64,000 nucleotides of DNA from assembly GCF_009796765.1 (NCBI RefSeq), contig NZ_CP047023.1, positions 3,393,501 through 3,457,500 on the forward strand, read 5' to 3'. A program made the translations under genes and the position numbers. The stretch is from Paraglaciecola sp. L3A3 (GTDB taxonomy: Bacteria; Pseudomonadota; Gammaproteobacteria; Enterobacterales; Alteromonadaceae). This document shows positions 216 to 58,525 of this stretch, piece by piece; positions within the stretch are counted from its first letter, which is position 1; each line of letters starts with the position of its first letter. The notes below the pieces were generated by a model that was not told where the DNA came from, did not search any database, and worked only from the letters and a program-made list of their open reading frames with translations.

Positions 216-1862
216 ATGAAAATTTGCCATAAACTCGTCACCTTATGTATTCCCCTTGTCATGATTTTTTCATCCTGCGAAGACAAAAAAATAGTAGAAC
301 CTGTTGTTACTGACAATTTTTCTCAGGTATATAAAAATATTAATGTCGAAGATATTAAAACACACATTAAAACCCTATCGTCAGACGAATTTGAAGGTAG
401 GTTACCGACAACTGTTGGTGAACAAAAAACATTAGATTATTTGCTCAAGGAGTTTAAGCAACTCGGTTATCAGCCAGGTAACGGCGATAGCTATTTACAA
501 GCGGTTGATTTAATTGAAATCACAGCAGATCCAAATATGGTTATGTCTATTGGTGACAACAAGCTCAATTACAAAGAACAAATGATGGCATCTAGCAAAC
601 TAGAGCAAAGTCAAGTTGAGCTAAAAGAGTCTGAATTAGTTTTTGTTGGATACGGGATCAATGCCCCTGAATATGATTGGAATGACTATTCAGACGTAGA
701 CGTCAAAGGTAAAACCGTGGTCATATTAGTCAATGATCCTGGTTTTGAAACACCTGAAAGTGGCTTATTTCAAGGTAAATCTATGACCTATTACGGTCGA
801 TGGACATATAAATATGAAGAGGCTAGCCGTCAAGGTGCTGCAGCTGCATTAATTGTGCATGAAACAAAACCTGCATCTTATGGTTGGTCCGTAGTAGCCA
901 ATAGCTGGAGCGGCCCGCAATATAACTTAGTATCAGAAAATAGCAATGCAGATAAAGTAGCGGTAGAAGGCTGGCTAACATTAGACAGTGCAGAAAAAGT
1001 ATTTGCCAGTGCAGGATTAGATTTTTTCGCCGAAAAACAAAAAGCCAAAGCAGCCAATTACAATAGACGTATGGGCGTAACAGCCTCCGTCACAATAAAT
1101 AACACCTTTAAAAAATCCACTAGTTATAACGTGATAGCCACATTACCCGGTACCAGTGCAGCAGATGAACACCTTATTTATACCGCACATTGGGATCACT
1201 TAGGAAAAGATGAAACTAAACAGGGTGACCAAATTTACAATGGCGCCCACGATAATGCCACAGGAATAGCAGCCAGTTTAGCTATAGCAAAATCATTCTC
1301 AGAATTAACTATTAAACCTAAACGAACTGTAACTTTTCTAATGGTCACAGCTGAAGAACAAGGATTATTAGGCTCAAAATATTATACCGAACACCCACTT
1401 ATTCCATTAGATAAAACCGTAGCCAATATCAATATGGATGCCATGAATGTGTTAGGTAAAACCAAAGATGTGGCGGTGGTGGGCATGGGTAAATCTGAAC
1501 TAGAAACCTATTTAAGAAAAGCGGCAAAGGCCCAAAATAGACATATTGTTCAAGAAGGCAAACCCGAGGCCGGATATTATTATCGAAGCGATCATTTCAA
1601 CTTTGCTAAAAAAGGCGTGCCAGCACTGTATGCGAAAGGCGGAAACGAACCTATTGACCAAGTCACCGCTGATTATCGCAAACGAACAAACGTGATCATC
1701 ACAGGCTGTTACCACCAAGTATGTGATCAATTCCGTGAAAATTGGGATTTATCAGGTATTCAACAAGATGCTCAACTTCTATTTAAAGTGGGTCACGACC
1801 TAGTTAATTCAAACGACTGGCCAAAGTGGACAGAAACCAGCGAATTTCAGCGACCAAGGTAA
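216..1862 (+). CDS. M28 family zinc aminopeptidase, lipoprotein
   Basis: Predicted secreted metallo-aminopeptidase of 548 residues. The N-terminus is a lipoprotein signal with a lipobox-like IFSSC (Cys21), so it is probably membrane-anchored in the periplasm or outer membrane. A PA-type insert fits residues about 130-290. The M28 di-zinc ligands and catalytic residues are all visible: His325 in AHWDHLG, Asp346 in GAHDNATG, Glu380/Glu381 in TAEEQG, Asp408 in NINMDAMN and His460 in YRSDHF. Family members cleave N-terminal residues from peptides; the substrate here is unknown. It stands alone, divergent from the gene at 1-132. The last 34 bases of the gene are part of a direct duplication that recurs at 2099, so the 3' end sits on a repeat boundary. 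Confidence 0.9.
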   Translation: MKICHKLVTLCIPLVMIFSSCEDKKIVEPVVTDNFSQVYKNINVEDIKTHIKTLSSDEFEGRLPTTVGEQKTLDYLLKEFKQLGYQPGNGDSYLQAVDLIEITADPNMVMSIGDNKLNYKEQMMASSKLEQSQVELKESELVFVGYGINAPEYDWNDYSDVDVKGKTVVILVNDPGFETPESGLFQGKSMTYYGRWTYKYEEASRQGAAAALIVHETKPASYGWSVVANSWSGPQYNLVSENSNADKVAVEGWLTLDSAEKVFASAGLDFFAEKQKAKAANYNRRMGVTASVTINNTFKKSTSYNVIATLPGTSAADEHLIYTAHWDHLGKDETKQGDQIYNGAHDNATGIAASLAIAKSFSELTIKPKRTVTFLMVTAEEQGLLGSKYYTEHPLIPLDKTVANINMDAMNVLGKTKDVAVVGMGKSELETYLRKAAKAQNRHIVQEGKPEAGYYYRSDHFNFAKKGVPALYAKGGNEPIDQVTADYRKRTNVIITGCYHQVCDQFRENWDLSGIQQDAQLLFKVGHDLVNSNDWPKWTETSEFQRPR

Positions 1863-2280
1863 TGATGATTTCTGTCAAAGGTTATAAATAAACACATTTG
1901 CGATAGTCAGATCTTTTAATCAAAGTAACTGACTATCCGTAAAGTTCTAGTTGATTAGTAGGAAGCACGGGACAAGAAGAGTTCTTGCAAAATGCTAGAC
2001 CGGCCCCCGCTTTTTTTTCTATCTAATTGTTTTCACTAAATTATTTGCACTACTAACAGGACAGCCACACTACTAACAGGACAGCCATGTTTATTACTGA
2101 CAGAAACCAGCGAATTTCAGCGACCAAGGTAATTATGATTTCTGTCAAAGGTTATAAATAAACACATTTTCGATAGTCAGATCTTTTAATCAAAGTAACT
2201 GACTATCCGTAAAGTTCTAGTTGATTAGTAGGAAGCACGGGACAAGAAGAGTTCTTGCAAAATGCTAGACCTGATCCCGC
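1829..2280. repeat. Direct duplication, two 182-bp copies 270 bp apart
   Basis: Bases 1829-2010 recur at 2099-2280 with a constant offset of 270 and only about five substitutions (for example 1864/2134, 1900/2170, 2002/2272). The first copy includes the last codons and stop of the M28 gene; the second is an orphan copy of that gene end. The copies are joined by GGACAGCC satellite units, and the sequence after each copy again ends in CATGTTTATTACT. The unit therefore looks like a tandem duplication of about 270 bp whose second copy later expanded. Confidence 0.9.
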
Positions 2281-2389
2281 ACTACTAACAGGACAGCCAC
2301 ACCACTACTAACAGGACAGCCATGTTTATCACTACTAACAGGACAGCCATACCACTACTAACAGGACAGCCATACTAACAGGACAGCCA
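2052..2389. repeat. Short satellite ACTAACAGGACAGCCA, seven copies in two clusters
   Basis: The 16-mer occurs at 2052, 2072, 2284, 2307, 2334, 2357 and 2374, usually extended to CACTACTAACAGGACAGCCA. Spacing is irregular (17-27 bases) and some units are followed by TGTTTAT. The reverse complement begins TGGCTGTCCTGTT. Short dispersed motifs of this sort can be substrates of REP-associated tyrosine transposases, but no transposase gene is present here, so that link is only a guess. Confidence 0.9.
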
Positions 2390-2920
2390 TGTTTATTACT
2401 ATTGCTTTACGCCTATCTAGACGGTAAAAGGCATTCAGTCGTCATTTTCGTGGCGCAGCCATGCTTTTGACGTACCTGCGACTACAAATCCCCCATACAA
2501 AATTTGGCTTGTCGGATGGCCAGATATGGACGTTTGGGTGAAAGCTGATTATTTAGGAACGAAGTTCCGCCAGCTTGAACAGCTCAACAAGGAAGTTGAG
2601 ATTGGTTACCGATCATCAGAGATGTGTGATTTATCAATTCAAAGTTTGTTTATATTGCCGTTCTGACATAAAAGGCAATTATTTTATGGAACAGGGATTT
2701 GTCTGGAGCGCGGCCTCTTTCTGGTTACTCTTTCTTGGCTGTTGAAGAAAGAGTCACTAGCTCGAAGGGATTCGAGTTAAAAATCTATATGGATGTAGAA
2801 TGAGCTCTGCGAATGCTTAGTGCGCGCAGCACATGCTTGATGAACGAAGTGAATACCTGTTGCGCGTAGCGCTTGCCTAGTGAATAACCTTTACGCCAAA
2901 TAGCCATTAAAAAATTATAA
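2390..2920. other. Intergenic stretch with no convincing gene; repeat remnants
   Basis: No supported gene. A frame on the plus strand stays open from 2421 to a TGA at 2664-2666, but its first ATG is only at 2526. It reads NPPYKIWLVGWPDMDVWVK across 2487-2543 and may be the remnant of a protein not recognised. From about 2810 to 2885 there is GCGC-rich repeat text (TAGTGCGCGCAGC, GAACGAAGTGAATA) that recurs in diverged form at about 28420-28475. Nothing else was identified. Confidence 0.4.
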
Positions 2921-2940
2921 AGTTGGCGTAGAAATTAGTG

Positions 2941-2946
2941 TATACT
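2941..2946 (+). promoter_or_regulatory. Probable -10 box of the gatCAB-aspS operon
   Basis: TATACT matches the sigma-70 -10 consensus at five of six positions and lies 44 bases before the Asn-rich leader start, so transcription would begin near 2953. A TTGGCG at 2923 is only 12 bases upstream, too close for a normal -35 box, so the -35 element is unclear. Confidence 0.5.
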
Positions 2947-2989
2947 GTCGCGAAATTTAATCTTACCATGACCTAAAGAACTCATTTCA

Positions 2990-3043
2990 ATGACAAATAA
3001 CGCGCAAAATAATAATTGGAATGGCAATAATCTAAACTACTAG
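2990..3043 (+). CDS. Asparagine-rich leader peptide of gatCAB-aspS
   Basis: A 17-codon open frame, MTNNAQNNNWNGNNLNY, starts at ATG 2990 and stops at TAG 3041-3043. Nine of 17 codons encode Asn (AAT or AAC at codons 3, 4, 7, 8, 9, 11, 13, 14, 16). It is followed within five bases by one arm of an antiterminator and then by a terminator, as in the trp, his, leu and phe leaders of enterobacteria. The inferred role is to sense charged tRNA(Asn): a stalled ribosome leaves the antiterminator free, while a ribosome reaching the stop covers it. The downstream operon encodes the transamidosome route to Asn-tRNA(Asn), so sensor and product match. The ribosome-binding site (AAAGAA, about ten bases upstream) is weak. 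Confidence 0.8.
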   Translation: MTNNAQNNNWNGNNLNY

Positions 3044-3047
3044 GTTC

Positions 3048-3083
3048 GGAAGGTTTATTAAATTAACAAACAAAAAACCTTCC
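3048..3083 (+). promoter_or_regulatory. Antiterminator hairpin of the Asn leader
   Basis: GGAAGGTTT at 3048-3056 can pair with AAACCTTCC at 3075-3083 across an 18-base loop. The second arm is also the left arm of the terminator at 3072-3102, so the two structures exclude each other. The first arm begins four bases after the leader stop codon, within the footprint expected of a terminating ribosome. Confidence 0.75.
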
Positions 3084-3104
3084 TAATATCGGAAGGTTTT
3101 TTTT
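3072..3104 (+). terminator. Attenuator terminator before gatC
   Basis: AAAAAACCTTCC (3072-3083) pairs perfectly with GGAAGGTTTTTT (3091-3102) around a seven-base loop, and a run of eight T closes it. It is an intrinsic terminator lying between the Asn-rich leader and gatC (start 3160), the position expected of an attenuator. Confidence 0.85.
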
Positions 3105-3159
3105 GCTTAGTTGGATGTGCGGTTAGCACGAAAATGTCACACAAGGTAAAGAAATAACA

Positions 3160-3429
3160 ATGAATAAAATCATGACGGTTGATGTCTTGTCGAGTATTAA
3201 AGGGGCCAAGCCCTCAGAGACAATAAACAAGTTGTTCGACGTGATTAATAACGCTGATTTATCTACCAAGGATACAGTGAGTGATATTAGTAAAAATGCC
3301 GTGGTCGTTGATAATCTCAGAGAGGATACTGTTGTTGAAGCAAGTGAACTTGAAAAACAACTGATAATAGAAAACTTTCCTCAAGAAAAAAATGGCTATT
3401 TAGTCGTGGCAAAAGTGATAGAAGCCTAA
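3160..3429 (+). CDS. gatC: Glutamyl/aspartyl-tRNA amidotransferase subunit C
   Basis: Small subunit (89 residues) of GatCAB, which converts Asp-tRNA(Asn) to Asn-tRNA(Asn) or Glu-tRNA(Gln) to Gln-tRNA(Gln) in the cytoplasm. GatC wraps around and stabilises GatA-GatB. The family signature NLREDTV is at about residues 52-58 and the end, GYLVVAKVIEA, resembles the usual ...VPKVIE tail. An AAGGTAAAG ribosome-binding site precedes the ATG. It is first in a tight operon: three bases separate it from gatA. Expression probably depends on the upstream Asn attenuator. Confidence 0.88.
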   Translation: MNKIMTVDVLSSIKGAKPSETINKLFDVINNADLSTKDTVSDISKNAVVVDNLREDTVVEASELEKQLIIENFPQEKNGYLVVAKVIEA

Positions 3430-3432
3430 TTT

Positions 3433-4833
3433 ATGCAATCTCAAATAAAACAAATACATCAACAATTAACCAGCAAACAAATCAGCTGTGTTGATTTAGT
3501 TCAGCAAAGGCTAGACTTGCTTAAACAAAATTCCCACGGCAGTGTTAACGCATTACTTGATTCTTATGCTCTTGAACGTGCGCAAGCGGTGGATGAAAAA
3601 ATCGCTAAGGGAGAAAGCATCGGACTACTTGAAGGCATTCCTTTTGGCGTAAAAGATGTGTTTATGTTGCAGGGAACCAAGACCACTGCCAGCTCTGATT
3701 TTTTAAAGCAATATAAATCGGCCTATACAGCAAGTGCTATTCAAAAGCTGTTAGATGCAGGGGCAATTCCTATTGTTAAAGAAAACTGCGATAGTTTTGG
3801 ACACGGTTCATCTAACGAAAATACTATTTTTGGCCCAGTGAGTAACGCCCATGATCCAGCATTAGTTGCCGGTGGCTCCAGTGGCGGTTCGGCTGTGAAT
3901 GTAGCCAAAGATTACACTGTGTTTTCTATTGGTGGTGATACTGGTGGTTCGGTACGCCAACCTGCTGGTTACAACCAAGTATATGGCTTAAAACCAACTT
4001 ATGGTCGTATCTCACGTTATGGACTGATGGCCTATGCATCGTCCACAGATTGTGTCGGCCCTTTAGCTAAATCTGTAGAAGACATTCGTATTGTGCTGAA
4101 CGCCATAAGTGGTAAAGACGTAAAAGATCAAACTACTTATGAATCGACTGAAATTGCTGAAGATTTTTTAGAAAAGGCTAGCGGCATTAAAACTGTAGGT
4201 TACTTTAAAAACCTGCTGGAAAACGATGCGATGGAACCTTCCATAAAAGCTGACTTTATGTCTGCTTTAGAAAAAATTAAAGCCCAAGGAATTGAAGTTA
4301 AAGCCCTCGATTTCTTAGATTCCGACACCTTAGTATCCACCTACTACATCCTTGCTATGGCAGAGACGGCTTCTAACCTCTCGCGACTAGACGGCACCAA
4401 TTACGGTAACCGTATTAACGCTGAAAACCTAATCGAAAGTTACGCCGTGACTCGTTCAGAAAACTTTTCAGAAGAAACCAAGCGCAGAATTGTTGGCGGA
4501 AACCAAGTTTTATCTCAAGGTTTTTCTGATGATATCTACCTAAAAAGCTTAGCGATACGAGATAAGTTGTCCGCCGATTTCGAAGGATTTTTTGCTCAGG
4601 TTGATCTTATCTTGTCACCTGTTACGCCTGGTTTACCGCCTAAAATAGGGGATAGCCTTAAAGACCCTATGGCAATGTATTTGTCAGATGCCTTCACGGT
4701 TGGATTTAGTCTTGGTCAATTACCCACACTAACCGTGCCACAAGGTACAGTAACCGGTATTCAAATTACAGCAGCTAAAACCGATGATGAGCGTGTTTTA
4801 CAGTTTGCTCACTTGCTAGAAGAAACACTATAA
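3433..4833 (+). CDS. gatA: Asp-tRNA(Asn)/Glu-tRNA(Gln) amidotransferase subunit A
   Basis: Amidase subunit (466 residues) that releases ammonia from glutamine or asparagine for the GatB kinase/transamidase site. The amidase-signature catalytic residues are seen: Lys74 in GVKD, cis-Ser149 in GGSSGGSA and nucleophile Ser173 in GGDTGGSVRQPA. The spacings of 75 and 24 residues equal those I recall for Staphylococcus aureus GatA (79/154/178). It is slightly short for the family (about 485). The stop codon overlaps the ATG of the next gene by one base (TAATG), which implies translational coupling with gatB-aspS. Confidence 0.95.
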   Translation: MQSQIKQIHQQLTSKQISCVDLVQQRLDLLKQNSHGSVNALLDSYALERAQAVDEKIAKGESIGLLEGIPFGVKDVFMLQGTKTTASSDFLKQYKSAYTASAIQKLLDAGAIPIVKENCDSFGHGSSNENTIFGPVSNAHDPALVAGGSSGGSAVNVAKDYTVFSIGGDTGGSVRQPAGYNQVYGLKPTYGRISRYGLMAYASSTDCVGPLAKSVEDIRIVLNAISGKDVKDQTTYESTEIAEDFLEKASGIKTVGYFKNLLENDAMEPSIKADFMSALEKIKAQGIEVKALDFLDSDTLVSTYYILAMAETASNLSRLDGTNYGNRINAENLIESYAVTRSENFSEETKRRIVGGNQVLSQGFSDDIYLKSLAIRDKLSADFEGFFAQVDLILSPVTPGLPPKIGDSLKDPMAMYLSDAFTVGFSLGQLPTLTVPQGTVTGIQITAAKTDDERVLQFAHLLEETL

Positions 4834-7800
4834 TGGATTTGGATTATTTAAACGATTTACTCGAAAAACACGACCTAGAACTTGTTATAGGTCTTGAAAC
4901 CCATGTGCGATTAAACACCAAAACTAAGTTGTTTTGTGCTTGTCCAAACAAAGAGTCAGACACCCCTAATCAAAATATTTGCTCCGTATGTACTGGACAA
5001 ATGGGTGTACTACCAGCTCTTAACAAAGAAGCCATCAGCAAAGCGATTTATTTTGGTAAAGCGGTTAATTCTAGCTTTAGCAATTCGGTCATTTCTTGGG
5101 ATCGTAAACACTACGAGTATCCGGATAACCCAAAAAATATCCAAATCACCCAGTTTCACAACCCTATTATACCAGATGGTGAAATTTCTTGCTTCCGCAA
5201 AGACGGCTCACAGTTTACCGTTAGTTTAACTCAGGTGCATATTGAAGAAGATGCGGCCAAGTTAATGCATGAAAAAGACATCTCTTTGGTTGATTTCAAT
5301 AAGGCCGGTGTGCCGTTAATTGAAATTGTAACGGATCCTTGTGTTAGAAACATCGAAGATGCATCCATCTATGCCCAGTATATTCAGCGTATAGTACAAA
5401 GCATTGGTATCTCTGAAGCGAACTTAGAAAAAGGCGAATTTAAGTCTGATGTGTCTGTGTCTTTGCGTAAAAGAAACACCAGCGGCCTAAATCCACGTAC
5501 CGAAATTAAAAATTTGAACTCCTTCAAATTCATGGTGGAGTCATTAAAAGAAGAAGTTGAAAAGCAACTTAACTACTATCTTGAACATGAGGAATTCCGT
5601 CCTGATCAAACCACAGTGTTGTGGGATGAAGATTTAAAACAAACTAAAGTCATGCGTAAAAAAGAGTATGAAGCTGACTATCGTTTTATCTCTGAACCTG
5701 ATTTACCTTTTGTGGATATTTCACAAACGGTGCAAGGCATAGAAGTGGATTTAGCCACTTTACCTTTTGCCATTGAGTCCATCTTGATCGAAGGCGGCGT
5801 TGTTCCCCAAGATGCTAAGTTTTTCACAGCCGAATCAGTACGTGCTCAAACCTTTATGGATATCAACAATGTCCTGAAAGATCCTTTGTTTATTGCCCGT
5901 ACTTTAGTCAATGTTATCCCTGCGGACGACTATGTCAATATTCAAGATACAGCAGTCATTACCGATATTTTCGCCCAGTTTAAAGACGGCAAAGTCAACT
6001 CGGTATTGGTGCAGAAAGCCGTTAGTGAATATTTAAAAGATGCGACTTTTGACTATAAAAAATATTTCCAAGAAAACAGTATTTCGGAACAACAAATAAC
6101 TGATGCCATCAATACCGTTATTACTCAAAATGAAGCCGTTGCTGCTGAAATAAAAGCGGGTAATCAGGGTAAGGCCGGTATTCTAGTTGGCAAAGTGATT
6201 GCCATCATTGGTAAAGGCGCATCAGGTAAAGTCATTCGCGAAGGGATTTTAAAAGCGGTTAATGCTACTGGAAGCAGCGGTAATTCAGGCTCTAGTAATA
6301 AAGAACTACCCGCAGCCACAGAAGCCGCAAAGCAAAGTGCTAAACAGGTAGAAGAAAAACTGCCAGAAACACCGCTTATCGTTAAAGATCACTATCGCAC
6401 CCATAAAATATCTGAATTATCAGAGCAATCAATCTCTCAACAAGTCACCCTGTCAGGTTGGGTGGCCAGTGTACGTGATCACGGTGATTTGATGTTTATC
6501 GACTTACGTGATTCTAGCTACCAAATTTTCCAAGTACGCCTGAGTCGTGAAAGCTTCCCTAATTTTGATGAATTAGTGACTTTAAAAGCTGAGTCTGTCA
6601 TTGCCGTCACGGGGATCGTTGTTCAGCGTAGAGAAGACGATTACAACCCAGGCCTAAGAACCGGTACCATTGAGCTTGAAACAACCATTCTAGAGATTTT
6701 AAATCTAGCGAGAAGCCTGCCCTTCGAAATTGCCAGGGCAACTAAAACAAGCGAAAATATTCGTTTCCAATATAAGTATCTCGATCACAGAAACAAAGAA
6801 GTGCGTAAGGTCATTATTGACCGTCACAAGGTGATTAAACTTATTAGAGATATGCTTGATGACGAAGGCTTCTTAGAAATGGAAACGCCTATCTTAAGTG
6901 CTGGAACCGATGAAGGTGCACGTGAGTTTATCGTACCCAGCCGTAAAGAATCAGGGGCATTTTATACTTTGCCTCAAGCGCCCCAGCAGTTTAAGCAAAT
7001 GATAATGGTCAGTGGTTACGAAAAGTATTTCCAAGTCGCTCGCTGTTTCAGGGATGAGGACTCAAGAGGTGACCGTCAGCCAGAATTCACTCAGTTAGAC
7101 ATTGAAATGGCCTATGCCAGCATGCAAGACATCATCGACTTGAATACTAAAATGTTCAATACAGTGGTGAGAAAAATTTATGGCAAAAAATGGAAATTAC
7201 ATGACTTTGCAGTCATCACCTACAAAGATGCTATGGATAAATACGGTTGCGACCGTCCAGACTTGCGCTTTGGCTTACAAATGCAAGACATTACCGATAT
7301 TGTCAAAGATACAAGCTTCCAAGTATTCAGTAAGCCAATAGAACAAGGTGGTATTGTTAAGTGTATTAAAGTCTCTGCAGAAGAACAAGGTGGTAAGCGT
7401 CTATCTAAAGGGCAAATCGAAAACCTTACAGCACTTGCTCAGCAAAACGGACTGGGTGGACTGGCGTATATATTTGTCAACGAAAACGATTTGCAGTCAC
7501 CCATTATTAAGTTCTTGGGCGAAGACATTGCTGCGAAAATTATTGCTGCAAGCGACGCGCAAGTTGGCGACGTGGTGTTTTTCTCTGCTGCCAGTTATGC
7601 CGTGGCAAACAAGGCATTAGATGTGGTGCGTCAAGAGCTAGGTAAGATGCTCAAGCTAATCGATCCTAAGGAGCTTCGACCTGCTTGGGTCGTAGACTTC
7701 CCTATGTTTGAGAAAACGGATGACGGCAGATGGACCTTTACTCACAACCCCTTCTCTATGCCTGCTATTACTGACATAGAAAAACACATGAATGGTAAAG

Positions 7801-8177
7801 AAGAAGAGATAGGCAATATCATTGCCCAGCAATACGATTTAGTGCTCAATGGTTACGAAATTGGTGGTGGCTCAGTCCGTGCCCATAAACCTGAGATCTT
7901 AGAGGCTACCTACAAAAATATGGGATACAACAAAGATGATATGCTGAAAAGCGTAGGCACTTTGTACAAAGCATTCCATTATGGCGCGCCGCCACATGGT
8001 GGGATCGCCTGGGGTATCGATCGCCTAATGATGTTGTTAGGTAAGAAAAATTCTATTCGTGAGGTGATGGTCTTCCCTAAAACGGGATCCAGCGAAGATT
8101 TACTCTTTAACGCTCCTTCGAAATTATCTGATAAAAAGGTTGAAGAAATGAACGTTAAGATAATCAGAAAGCAATAA
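4833..8177 (+). CDS. gatB-aspS: GatB fused to bacterial-type aspartyl-tRNA synthetase
   Basis: A single 1114-residue frame encodes two full enzymes. Residues 1-476 are GatB (start VIGLETHVRLNTKTKLFC, GVPLIEIVTDP, C-terminal YqeY-like tail), which activates and amidates misacylated tRNA. A Ser/Gly/Asn then Ala/Lys-rich linker spans about 477-516. Residues about 517-1114 are a complete class II AspRS: OB anticodon domain, motif 2 FRDEDSRGDRQPEF from 739, GAD-type insert, and motif 3 GGIAWGIDRLMMLLG at 1056-1070. His550 in VRDHGD aligns with His31 of Pseudomonas aeruginosa AspRS, a residue linked to nondiscriminating enzymes (Escherichia coli has Leu). The usual Gly at position 82 is Asp here. 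The product should charge tRNA(Asn) with Asp and pass it to the attached amidotransferase. A strong terminator follows at 8203. Confidence 0.92.
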   Translation: MDLDYLNDLLEKHDLELVIGLETHVRLNTKTKLFCACPNKESDTPNQNICSVCTGQMGVLPALNKEAISKAIYFGKAVNSSFSNSVISWDRKHYEYPDNPKNIQITQFHNPIIPDGEISCFRKDGSQFTVSLTQVHIEEDAAKLMHEKDISLVDFNKAGVPLIEIVTDPCVRNIEDASIYAQYIQRIVQSIGISEANLEKGEFKSDVSVSLRKRNTSGLNPRTEIKNLNSFKFMVESLKEEVEKQLNYYLEHEEFRPDQTTVLWDEDLKQTKVMRKKEYEADYRFISEPDLPFVDISQTVQGIEVDLATLPFAIESILIEGGVVPQDAKFFTAESVRAQTFMDINNVLKDPLFIARTLVNVIPADDYVNIQDTAVITDIFAQFKDGKVNSVLVQKAVSEYLKDATFDYKKYFQENSISEQQITDAINTVITQNEAVAAEIKAGNQGKAGILVGKVIAIIGKGASGKVIREGILKAVNATGSSGNSGSSNKELPAATEAAKQSAKQVEEKLPETPLIVKDHYRTHKISELSEQSISQQVTLSGWVASVRDHGDLMFIDLRDSSYQIFQVRLSRESFPNFDELVTLKAESVIAVTGIVVQRREDDYNPGLRTGTIELETTILEILNLARSLPFEIARATKTSENIRFQYKYLDHRNKEVRKVIIDRHKVIKLIRDMLDDEGFLEMETPILSAGTDEGAREFIVPSRKESGAFYTLPQAPQQFKQMIMVSGYEKYFQVARCFRDEDSRGDRQPEFTQLDIEMAYASMQDIIDLNTKMFNTVVRKIYGKKWKLHDFAVITYKDAMDKYGCDRPDLRFGLQMQDITDIVKDTSFQVFSKPIEQGGIVKCIKVSAEEQGGKRLSKGQIENLTALAQQNGLGGLAYIFVNENDLQSPIIKFLGEDIAAKIIAASDAQVGDVVFFSAASYAVANKALDVVRQELGKMLKLIDPKELRPAWVVDFPMFEKTDDGRWTFTHNPFSMPAITDIEKHMNGKEEEIGNIIAQQYDLVLNGYEIGGGSVRAHKPEILEATYKNMGYNKDDMLKSVGTLYKAFHYGAPPHGGIAWGIDRLMMLLGKKNSIREVMVFPKTGSSEDLLFNAPSKLSDKKVEEMNVKIIRKQ

Positions 8178-10355: not shown

Positions 10356-11234
10356 CTAATAACCAGTGTTAAACCATAATTCACTTCTGTTTATAGGTGT
10401 ATTAATTGGTAAGAAAGTATTCTCTAATGTGTATATGTTTCTATTGTTAATTTTACTTTTATCAATAAAATCCTGATAAGTTTCAACAAAAAGAGCGTCA
10501 AATTCACCATTTTTTATTGCTCGTTCCAAGCCCGTATTAATCAAATGGGCTAAGGGAGTGCTCTTCGAGTTCACGAAAAAATATACAGCAGCAGGATAAT
10601 ACAGCCCTAAAGTAGGCTGTATTATAATTTTTTTATTAGAAGGAAAGTTACTTAACTCTTCTCTAATCTCCAGCATAGAACGCGGAAAAAAATCTCCTTG
10701 CGCGCTTACTAACATTTTAGCTAACTCTGCTGGCGTTGAATTAGTCAATACATCAAAACCATTAGATTGCAAAATTTTGGTATCTGGCCAGTCACTTCCT
10801 TGAATTGGAGTGAGTTTAAGTAGATGCTCTAACTTTTGGATATACTTAAAACGCTCAGACATATCATCACGGATTAAAAACAAACGCCAACCCACCAGTC
10901 CCTTGTATATAGGTATTCGAATAGGTAAAAGTTCCTTCTCTCGCTGTTTATCTGTCATACTCCATACAACATTAATTTCTCTATTATCTTTTAATCGATT
11001 TAGATTTTTTCCTTGAGGATAAAACTTTCTGGAAGGAATAAGCTCGTATTTGACCCCCGTTTGTTGTAAAGCCAAAGCCAATACTTTTAGCGGATACTCA
11101 GAACTTTTATCACTGTCTGAACTAGGCCTAGGATAAGTAATCTTCCAAGTTGCCGACAAAACATCTGCACAAACTGTCAATAATAACAGCCCGCTTAATA
11201 TCGACAAGACTCTACGCCCTTGTTTACCCTGCAT
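10356..11234 (-). CDS. Periplasmic solute-binding-like protein (SBP family 3 type)
   Basis: A secreted protein with a Sec signal ending near VCADVLSA, followed by a fold resembling extracellular solute-binding proteins of amino-acid transporters (WKITYPRP at the first strand, ending in FVETYQDFIDKS). A GTG at 11246 also opens this frame, but ATG 11234 is preferred because a GGAG lies eleven bases before it. No permease or ATPase gene is adjacent, so a transport role is doubtful. Alteromonads carry many such orphan proteins, some thought to act in sensing; the ligand is unknown. Confidence 0.65.
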   Translation of the reverse strand: MQGKQGRRVLSILSGLLLLTVCADVLSATWKITYPRPSSDSDKSSEYPLKVLALALQQTGVKYELIPSRKFYPQGKNLNRLKDNREINVVWSMTDKQREKELLPIRIPIYKGLVGWRLFLIRDDMSERFKYIQKLEHLLKLTPIQGSDWPDTKILQSNGFDVLTNSTPAELAKMLVSAQGDFFPRSMLEIREELSNFPSNKKIIIQPTLGLYYPAAVYFFVNSKSTPLAHLINTGLERAIKNGEFDALFVETYQDFIDKSKINNRNIYTLENTFLPINTPINRSELWFNTGY

Positions 11235-11270
11235 ACGAATTAACACTCCATTTGAACAAAATAATTAAGG

Positions 11271-11945
11271 CTACTCTATACCAATAAATTTATGAGTTTG
11301 TAATGACAAACGCCAATTACGCGCTATACAAGTTTTGATTGCAAGTTCAGTTGCTCTTTTTTGCTGGCTTATCGGTTGTAGGTACACATTAGGCATAGGC
11401 TTATCATCCAATAAACTTAATACTTGGTCCAGCTCGTCTATATGTTTTTCCATGGCGATAGGATGTTTTATCTCATTGGCTCTTAGCATGGCGCTTTTTA
11501 ACACCTTTCTTCCACCAGGCATATTCACTTTAGGAGAAACTGTTACCCAAGTATCAGCATGGGCTAATATCTCGTAGGTACCACTAGTTTCAATTTGAAC
11601 TGAATAACCTTCATCAAGTAAACGACTAGTGATAGCAGTTAAATCATATAAGCATGGTTCTCCACCGGTAATCACTACATGTTTAGCCATATAACCTTGG
11701 ACAGAAAACAAAGATAATAACTGCTCGATAGTTTGTTCAAACCAAGTGTTAGATTCACTATTTTCAGCCATCACTACAGTACTAGAACGTTTGAATTCAG
11801 GATCTACTGTCCAAGTATGCTGGGTATCACACCAAGGACAGCCAACAGGACAACCTTGTAAACGTACAAAAATAGATGGCAGACCGGTGTAACTGCCCTC
11901 CCCCTGTAATGACTCAAATACTTCATTAATTTTATAAGAACTCAA
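11271..11945 (-). CDS. queE: 7-carboxy-7-deazaguanine synthase
   Basis: Radical SAM enzyme of queuosine synthesis that contracts 6-carboxytetrahydropterin to 7-carboxy-7-deazaguanine (224 residues). The cluster-binding cysteines 32, 36 and 39 are in GCPVGCPWCDT, and the N-terminus INEVFESLQGEG binds the substrate region in the family. TTG 11945 is taken as start since AAGGAGAG lies five bases upstream. It diverges from queC, which acts on its product, across 115 bp, so both probably share control. Confidence 0.93.
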   Translation of the reverse strand: MSSYKINEVFESLQGEGSYTGLPSIFVRLQGCPVGCPWCDTQHTWTVDPEFKRSSTVVMAENSESNTWFEQTIEQLLSLFSVQGYMAKHVVITGGEPCLYDLTAITSRLLDEGYSVQIETSGTYEILAHADTWVTVSPKVNMPGGRKVLKSAMLRANEIKHPIAMEKHIDELDQVLSLLDDKPMPNVYLQPISQQKRATELAIKTCIARNWRLSLQTHKFIGIE

Positions 11946-58474: not shown

Positions 58475-58525
58475 CGGCTTAAATCGTTCATAATAAGGTT
58501 TAATTACCTTTAGCCGGCTTTTTTT
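58475..58525 (+). terminator. Terminator-like hairpin after the pseudogene
   Basis: CGGCTTAAA (58475-58483) can pair with TTTAGCCG (58509-58516) with one bulge, followed by seven T. It probably served the pseudogene. Confidence 0.55.

Follow-up and report, generated by a model that had tools for sequence, protein, structure and literature searches.

A probable asparagine-sensing leader attenuator ahead of a gatC-gatA-gatB/aspS operon located where related genomes keep asnB

The window analysed, meaning the whole 64-kb stretch of DNA (64,000 nucleotides), raises the question of what controls the gatC-gatA-gatB/aspS operon that it contains, and of how that operon came to lie at its present site. 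The preferred answer, which we regard as highly probable, is that positions 2941-3105 constitute a ribosome-mediated attenuator that reads Asn-tRNA(Asn) and controls the operon, and that both were acquired from a Flavobacteriaceae-like source and stand where relatives keep asnB. The anatomy, conservation and homology of this element, the gene content of the operon, and the flanks that it has in common with asnB are all legible in the sequence itself.

The original prediction of a 17-codon leader with nine Asn codons was confirmed at the level of individual bases: the ORF, MTNNAQNNNWNGNNLNY, runs on the plus strand from ATG at 2990 to TAG at 3043 (2990..3043). The coordinates proposed for two overlapping hairpins ahead of gatC all held. 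On the same strand, an antiterminator left arm, GGAAGGTTT (3048..3056), pairs with a shared arm, AAACCTTCC (3075..3083), which serves both as the right arm of the antiterminator and as the left arm of an intrinsic terminator, AAAAAACCTTCC / GGAAGGTTTTTT (3072..3102; 12 pairs, 7-nt loop). A T run occupies 3097-3104, six of its eight T being taken up by the outer A-T pairs of the 12-pair terminator stem, and the distance from hairpin to gatC is 57 nt. A small plus-strand hairpin read from the sequence, AATCTA / TAGGTT (3029..3046), spans the leader stop codon; it is weak in the window (-2.3 kcal/mol), with an RNAalifold consensus of UCCUA/UAGGA across 55 leader-bearing sequences and one compensatory case, in locus L078. 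A putative -10-like element of the leader transcript, TATACT, lies at 2941..2946 on the plus strand, with ATTAGTGTATACT the same in all four gammaproteobacterial copies. A consensus promoter scan returned nothing for the plus strand at the leader and no good -35 was seen; 2941-2946 is put forward here as a candidate leader promoter.

Within the window, the leader is the single ORF of 8-30 codons in which Asn occurs 8 or more times and makes up 50% or more of the codons, while comparable ORFs averaged 0.0 in 60 dinucleotide shuffles of the window and appeared in none of 2000 shuffles of 1863-3159 or 5000 of 2941-3159. Under looser limits (6 Asn, 35%) one further window ORF, with its end at 58493, qualified. 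The leader interval folded better than its own shuffles (z -2.23; 5 of 200 shuffles equally good). By way of contrast, a pattern scan for terminators gave no support, since the leader hairpin was listed on the minus strand only and terminator-like sites were fewer than shuffles yield (4 vs 6.0). The stronger proof of a switch comes from conservation across 55 sequences.

The plus-strand genes downstream encode GatA, GatB, GatC and an AspRS together, the combination taken to mark tRNA-dependent Asn synthesis. The gatC product (3160..3429; 89 aa) is divergent, scoring 23.5 bits against TIGR00135 (cut-off 47.1), and shares 57-68% identity with the gatC products of Bacteroidota operons; that of gatA (3433..4833; 466 aa) scores 439.8 bits against TIGR00132 (cut-off 481.1). 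For both, the NCBIfam scores fall under the cut-offs, yet those families are their best. The gatB and aspS genes, initially taken to be separate, proved to be one fused gene (4833..8177; 1114 aa) that had been missed earlier, encoding a putative nondiscriminating AspRS joined to GatB. NCBIfam models score over cut-off for both domains, gatB at residues 14-476 and aspS at 520-1112, and the NCBI name for such a fusion is 'bifunctional amidotransferase subunit GatB/aspartate--tRNA ligase AspS'. A stand-alone GatB-like frame of 501 aa and 39% identity was observed at G039:C276:12637-13602 (same order).

The best PDB sequence match of the fusion is the Pseudomonas aeruginosa Aspartate--tRNA(Asp/Asn) ligase 4wj3, with which the fused AspRS has the RDHG motif in common. 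The His that follows RD in the anticodon-binding domain, presumably the position of P. aeruginosa His31 and one bearing on specificity, was present, as in 4wj3, in 84 of 84 fused AspRS, whereas Leu occupied the same position in 24 of 24 stand-alone AspRS of the host's family and in the E. coli and Thermus AspRS chains shown. At what we take to be the second reported P. aeruginosa specificity residue, Gly82, the fused AspRS of the window has Asp. The fused AspRS is probably nondiscriminating and would place Asp on tRNA(Asn). Passages of PMC4206432 describe a requirement of bacterial GatCAB for the U1-A72 pair, which was found in both tRNA(Asn) copies of the operon hosts G000, G003 and G009 and in one of two copies of G013, the other lying at a contig end; it is not a discriminating feature, since G001 and G002, relatives without the operon, have it too. 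Eight short Bacteroidota stretches searched for tRNA(Asn) contained no tRNA. In G066, two AspRS copies with identical scores were noted 15 kb apart in opposite orientation (C3:1122486 and C3:1137434), representing either a duplication or an assembly artefact.

From this arrangement we infer translation of the leader, stalling, termination and readthrough, together with the enzyme activities, in the following scheme. When Asn-tRNA(Asn) is plentiful, the ribosome would reach the UAG at 3041-3043 and cover the left arm (3048-3056), leaving the shared arm (3075-3083) to pair with the sequence from 3091 onward, and transcription would end short of gatC. Under scarcity of Asn-tRNA(Asn), a ribosome stalled at an Asn codon would leave the left arm free to capture the shared arm while the terminator is still incomplete, such that gatC-gatA-gatB/aspS would be transcribed. 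The fused AspRS would then charge tRNA(Asn) with Asp, and GatCAB would amidate it to Asn-tRNA(Asn), thereby restoring the sensed product.

Comparative data were drawn from 79 Bacteroidota loci with a gatC start in hand, taken from the best 80 of 338 fused-protein matches. A homologous leader, with the same switch, was present in 51 of these 79 operons and missing from 28. The original prediction had taken the same operon without a leader in relatives as evidence against it, and the 28 leaderless operons count against it in part. Leaderless loci (e.g., L022, L024, L080 and L086) have another upstream region with no attenuator, and in several, such as L022, a TAnnTTTG-like sequence was seen by eye near gatC. 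Placed on the fused-protein tree, the leader label required eight changes, four of them forced by well-supported branches, which indicates that the regulator is separable from the operon.

The typical Bacteroidota leader takes the form M..NNNNNNFNNPNF, that is MTxNNNNNNFNNPNF or a version with NNNNRN. Among gammaproteobacteria, the host genome and G003 both have MTNNAQNNNWNGNNLNY, G009 has MLNNALNNNWNGNNLNY and G013 has MINNAQHNNWNGNNLNS. Each of the 55 leader-bearing sequences (51 Bacteroidota plus four gammaproteobacterial) contains 6-10 Asn codons. At positions -10 to -12 from the stop, AAT and AAC were both used while Asn was kept in 48-49 of 51 leaders, a variation that favours selection at the level of the amino acid; AAT is nearly always the codon at the remaining Asn positions, so that selection on the RNA is possible too. 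The sequence TAnnTTTG, which we take to be the Bacteroidetes promoter motif, was located 13-20 nt ahead of the leader start codon in 51 of 51 Bacteroidota, compared with 42 of 1020 random 70-mers.

An independent RNA model built from 21 Bacteroidota leaders, with no gammaproteobacterial sequences, recovered 30 of 30 held-out leaders at 96-124 bits and all four gammaproteobacterial leaders at 51.4, 50.7, 49.2 and 43.0 bits (E 2e-6 to 1e-4). The window copy is that scoring 43.0 bits, 4.4 above the next match, a leader before a trpE-like gene in L082; given this margin, position and the better-scoring sister copies form part of the basis for linking it to the Bacteroidota leaders. At E values up to 1, the same model gave no plus-strand match upstream of gatC in the 28 leaderless loci, and it gave none in four asnB neighbourhoods. 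RNA model R1 matched in 4 of 40 relatives, in 1 of 296 Bacteroidota genomes (G040, a training genome) and in 12 of 120 Flavobacteriaceae, in all 12 before gatC, at least two of these being training genomes.

Folding retained both helices and all three arms in 55 of 55 leader-bearing sequences. The shared arm reads CCTTCC, flanked by a left and a right partner, in every case; the regular expression used for this count itself requires CCTTCC, which the alignment shows as well. Six core pairs of the antiterminator were kept in 50 to 55 of the 55. The pair beside the terminator core was G-C in 44, A-T in 8 and G-T in 3, and the inner terminator pair A-T in 25, G-C in 16 and non-standard in 12, with terminator pairs varying in step at two positions. 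As the antiterminator base facing the variable terminator pair is T in 55 of 55, and can pair with either partner, both folds survive the G/A change. A count conducted on alignment A2 used an RNAalifold structure that comprises the Asn codons paired with the strand after the left arm, the stop hairpin and the terminator, excludes the antiterminator, and was itself obtained from these related sequences; in none of 500 shuffles did the paired cells or the covariation score reach the observed values, and 3 of 28 pairs changed on both sides, a value as high in 120 of 500 shuffles. The covariation check proposed at the outset was thus answered in part: leader and hairpins are kept in all 55 sequences and two terminator positions vary in step, but the covariation, which appears real at a few terminator pairs, is modest overall.

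The terminator was the more stable fold in 53 of 55 sequences (medians -16.3 vs -11.6 kcal/mol). When the ribosome edge was assumed to lie 12 nt from the A-site codon, measured from its first base, the antiterminator was permitted in 475 of 481 simulated Asn stalls and, with a ribosome at the stop codon, in 0 of 55 sequences; the same split was obtained with edges of 11-14 nt, and at 15 nt the figures were 467 of 481 stalls vs 0 of 55 at the stop. A ribosome at the stop still permitted the antiterminator in 15 of 55 sequences at 10 nt, 45 at 9 nt and 54 at 8 nt, such that the switch fails in silico with an edge of 8-9 nt. The expectation that a ribosome finishing the leader should cover the first arm, which in the window begins 4 bases past the stop, is consistent with these data, the left arm beginning 3-5 nt past the stop in 54 of 55 sequences and the covering holding in silico for an edge of 11-14 nt. 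At equilibrium and full length, a stalled ribosome still left the terminator as the fold of lowest energy in 52 of 55 sequences, so any decision must be kinetic and made during transcription. In the absence of a ribosome, the 5' part favoured the antiterminator in 52 of 55; shut-off would therefore need efficient translation of the leader, yet no clear Shine-Dalgarno sequence was seen by eye before it.

The proposed attenuation mechanism, with Asn codons as the sensor, draws comparative support from the presence of those codons and of all three arms in 55 of 55 sequences, and it is against this that other readings have to be weighed. Were the hairpin a plain terminator of an upstream transcript, the Asn-rich ORF would be a by-product of AT-richness and the gatC promoter would lie past the terminator. 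The region is indeed AT-rich, 28 of 79 Bacteroidota operons have a leaderless upstream region, and the terminator scan found no excess of sites, but this account sits poorly with the zero count of such ORFs in shuffles, the retention of Asn across AAT/AAC changes in relatives, the second hairpin with a common arm in 55 of 55 sequences, and the promoter motif right before the leader in 51 of 51 Bacteroidota; it is considered improbable.

Arrest peptides exist, and the strongly conserved NFNNPN of the Bacteroidota leaders could suggest a leader that stalls the ribosome, or feeds ribosomes to gatC by translation coupling, with no sensing of tRNA. The gammaproteobacterial peptide (NNNWNGNNLNY), however, differs while keeping Asn and geometry; the pairing of the CCT Pro codon with the stop region may account for the retention of Pro; and a terminator together with 57 nt between hairpin and gatC points to transcriptional control, so that little credence is given to such a mechanism. 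Least credible, and very improbable indeed, is a T-box or some other tRNA- or metabolite-binding RNA: although a T-box in Clostridium acetobutylicum reportedly acts on the same pathway, the codons of the leader ORF are conserved, no Rfam family reached its gathering score in the window, and the host's own locus (L104) gave no Rfam match at the leader at E 0.5.

An Asn-reading attenuator, the preferred interpretation, would be a new member of an old mechanism class, that of ribosome-mediated attenuation, to which trp, his and other leaders belong; we know of no trp, his, leu, ilv, thr or Phe attenuator that senses Asn. Open-access literature on leaders and attenuation, on the enzymes and on T-boxes, with subscription journals mostly outside its range, yielded no Asn leader-peptide attenuator, and the string 'asparagin' is absent from the main text of PMC2965389 and PMC2864571. 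The Phe leader RF01859 and the proteobacterial trp, his, leu, ilv and thr attenuators are of the mechanism class proposed for the Asn leader (compare PMC1183508). RF01859 gave a sub-threshold score at the Asn leader of L105 (34.8 bits against a gathering score of 55; E 0.041) and no match in the window. The nearest described RNA is Bacteroid-trp (RF01692), the tryptophan leader of Bacteroidetes, which likewise combines a short leader of cognate codons, a stop, alternative hairpins and a terminator; the Asn leader differs from it in having Asn rather than Trp codons and other stem sequences, and in controlling tRNA-dependent synthesis. RF01692 gave no match at the Asn leaders of L104, L105, L021 and L029.

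The Bacteroidota-only Asn model cross-matched the leader MKFNTKNIWWWNSLNS before the trpE-like gene of L082 (38.6 bits). Ahead of an ilvD-like gene on the minus strand of L117 (1540-1660) stands a further leader, MRNQILISISIIVIVIISQG. GGAAGG..CCTTCC..GGAAGG and a T run come after it, and the whole would be a branched-chain attenuator sharing its chassis with the Asn leader. These cross-matches of Asn models to trpE (L082) and ilvD (L117) leaders suggest one Flavobacteriaceae chassis with differing sensor codons. Two further elements were seen in these loci: a Bacteroid-trp leader, MKKIINNTWWWNSLI, before a trpE-like gene lying divergently beside the Asn leader in Polaribacter vadi (L021 3746-3861, minus strand), and a SAM-II riboswitch before a metK-like gene (L117 1742-1819).

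A T-box binds tRNA directly and has no translated leader. One reportedly controls the tRNA-dependent amidation genes of C. acetobutylicum, the subject of work by Saad in 2012 and 2013, and would thus act on the same pathway and the same tRNA as the Asn leader. The claim that no well-described Asn-tRNA attenuator acts on GatCAB therefore stands for leader peptides, as far as the open-access literature extends, but the pathway already has a precedent for tRNA-based control. Passages of PMC4206432 describe the AsnB of C. acetobutylicum as split and not functional under normal conditions; they also describe an extra AspRS and GatCAB that serve Asn synthesis beside AsnRS in Thermus/Deinococcus, and bacteria, including some Bacteroidetes, that have AsnRS and GatCAB without an Asn synthetase, these passages mentioning no leader. 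The extra AspRS of Thermus/Deinococcus is of archaeal type, whereas that of the window is of bacterial type, fused to GatB and apparently attenuator-controlled.

The distribution of the operon is uneven. The full fusion was found in 4 of 22 host-genus genomes (the host's own and 3 of 21 others) and in 0 of 18 further relatives outside the genus, while the fused protein occurred in 1 of 369 genomes of the class (the host's own) and in 3 of 296 Bacteroidota genomes. The comparison set originally suggested, related Alteromonadaceae, was accordingly for the most part ill chosen, the operon's nearest kin being in Flavobacteriaceae. The closest fused relatives outside the genus, among the best 80 of 338 matches, are from Bacteroidota, with 76-79% identity over 1107-1114 residues, and 76 of the 79 Bacteroidota loci are labelled Flavobacteriaceae, the exceptions being L046, L070 and L087. 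In a tree of 84 fused proteins, prepared by a quick method and midpoint-rooted for drawing, the four gammaproteobacterial copies grouped together (SH-aLRT 100%), with a long branch separating them from the Bacteroidota. Operon presence needed two changes on a poorly resolved tree of host AspRS, which does not establish that the four operon-bearing hosts form a single clade. Horizontal transfer of the operon would be the simplest reading, and its direction, from a Flavobacteriaceae-like source to gammaproteobacteria, is that which we infer for operon and attenuator alike.

Examination of the flanks linked the operon to asnB. On the left lies a plus-strand peptidase-like gene (216..1862) with weak aminopeptidase matches, which we take to encode an M28 peptidase, its product being 72% identical to that of the gene left of asnB in L170 (G012). 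On the right, a minus-strand pair (10356..11945) comprises genes that we presume to be solute-binding-like (a short protein, 10356-11246) and queE-like (11271-11945). The host's order is peptidase, operon, GGDEF gene, solute-binding-like gene and queE, and that of G012 is peptidase, asnB, two genes, solute-binding-like gene and queE. In G001 and G016, asnB adjoins the solute-binding-like gene, followed by queE; in G002 it lies about 2.6 kb from that gene, again with queE next in order; and in G003, G009 and G013 the operon is beside, or one gene from, the pair. In tblastn searches the right-flank pair matched on the right side of asnB in L168 and L171, likewise in L169 and L170 but after an interval of ~2.6 kb, and on the right side of the operon in L101, L102 and L103.

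The right flank is therefore common to all eight loci read, which include 4 of 18 asnB loci. The left flank matches only between the host and G012: the peptidase was matched neither within 4.1 kb on the left side of asnB in L171 (G016) nor to the left of the operon in L101, L102 and L103 (G003, G009 and G013), the stretches of L168 and L169 (G001 and G002) lying outside this comparison. A search for asnB remnants beside the operon yielded only a 24-residue match (E 0.56). At this site, asnB seems to have been replaced by the operon together with its Asn attenuator.

Gene content within the genus follows a similar pattern. Short-type asnB, matching profile 1-386 to 1-388 in frames of 561-613 aa, was detected in all 18 host-genus genomes that lack the operon and in none of the 4 that have it; these 22 genomes, being related, do not count as independent. 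All 22 genus members, the host included, have a longer AsnB-family frame (589-677 aa), and the host's AsnB-family gene over cut-off (C1:4251224; 648-aa frame) is of this longer type, so a second Asn route is possible in the host. Among 40 operon-bearing Bacteroidota genomes, an AsnB-family match at E 1e-30 was found in 13 and none in 27, and a separate AspRS was present in 40 of 40 searched. The idea that the leader marks genomes in which the operon is the only Asn route was rejected, TIGR01536 matching in 7 of 20 leader-bearing vs 6 of 20 leaderless genomes. A search run with positive controls found asnA in 0 of 62 genomes, and asnS (AsnRS) was present in 47 of 47 genomes tested.

The possibility that the asnB of relatives has an Asn leader of its own was likewise discarded, since in all 18 cases the 230 bases upstream were free of Asn-rich ORFs; the swap, if real, thus changed control as well. 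Upstream of asnB in L180-L195, L170 and L171, inspection by eye showed two features that recur in the 18 relatives, namely a promoter region resembling TTGCTTTTTT and an element resembling TGTAAGAAAAT / TGTAAAAAAATTACAGTTT, perhaps a regulator site.

The data suggest that the attenuator crossed phyla with its operon and kept its geometry. The broader interpretation, which on balance we favour, if with some reserve, is that of a portable self-regulated module that moved from Flavobacteriaceae-like bacteria, displaced asnB at its own locus and brought with it a sensor of Asn-tRNA(Asn), changing chemistry and control in one step. If the attenuator acts as proposed, asparagine would join the amino acids sensed by leader-peptide attenuation, and a tRNA-dependent pathway would gain a control that reads its own direct product. 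The locus would then represent a natural swap between asnB and gatCAB-aspS at a common site in some species of one genus, through which the choice that bacteria make between the synthesis of free and of tRNA-bound asparagine could be tested.
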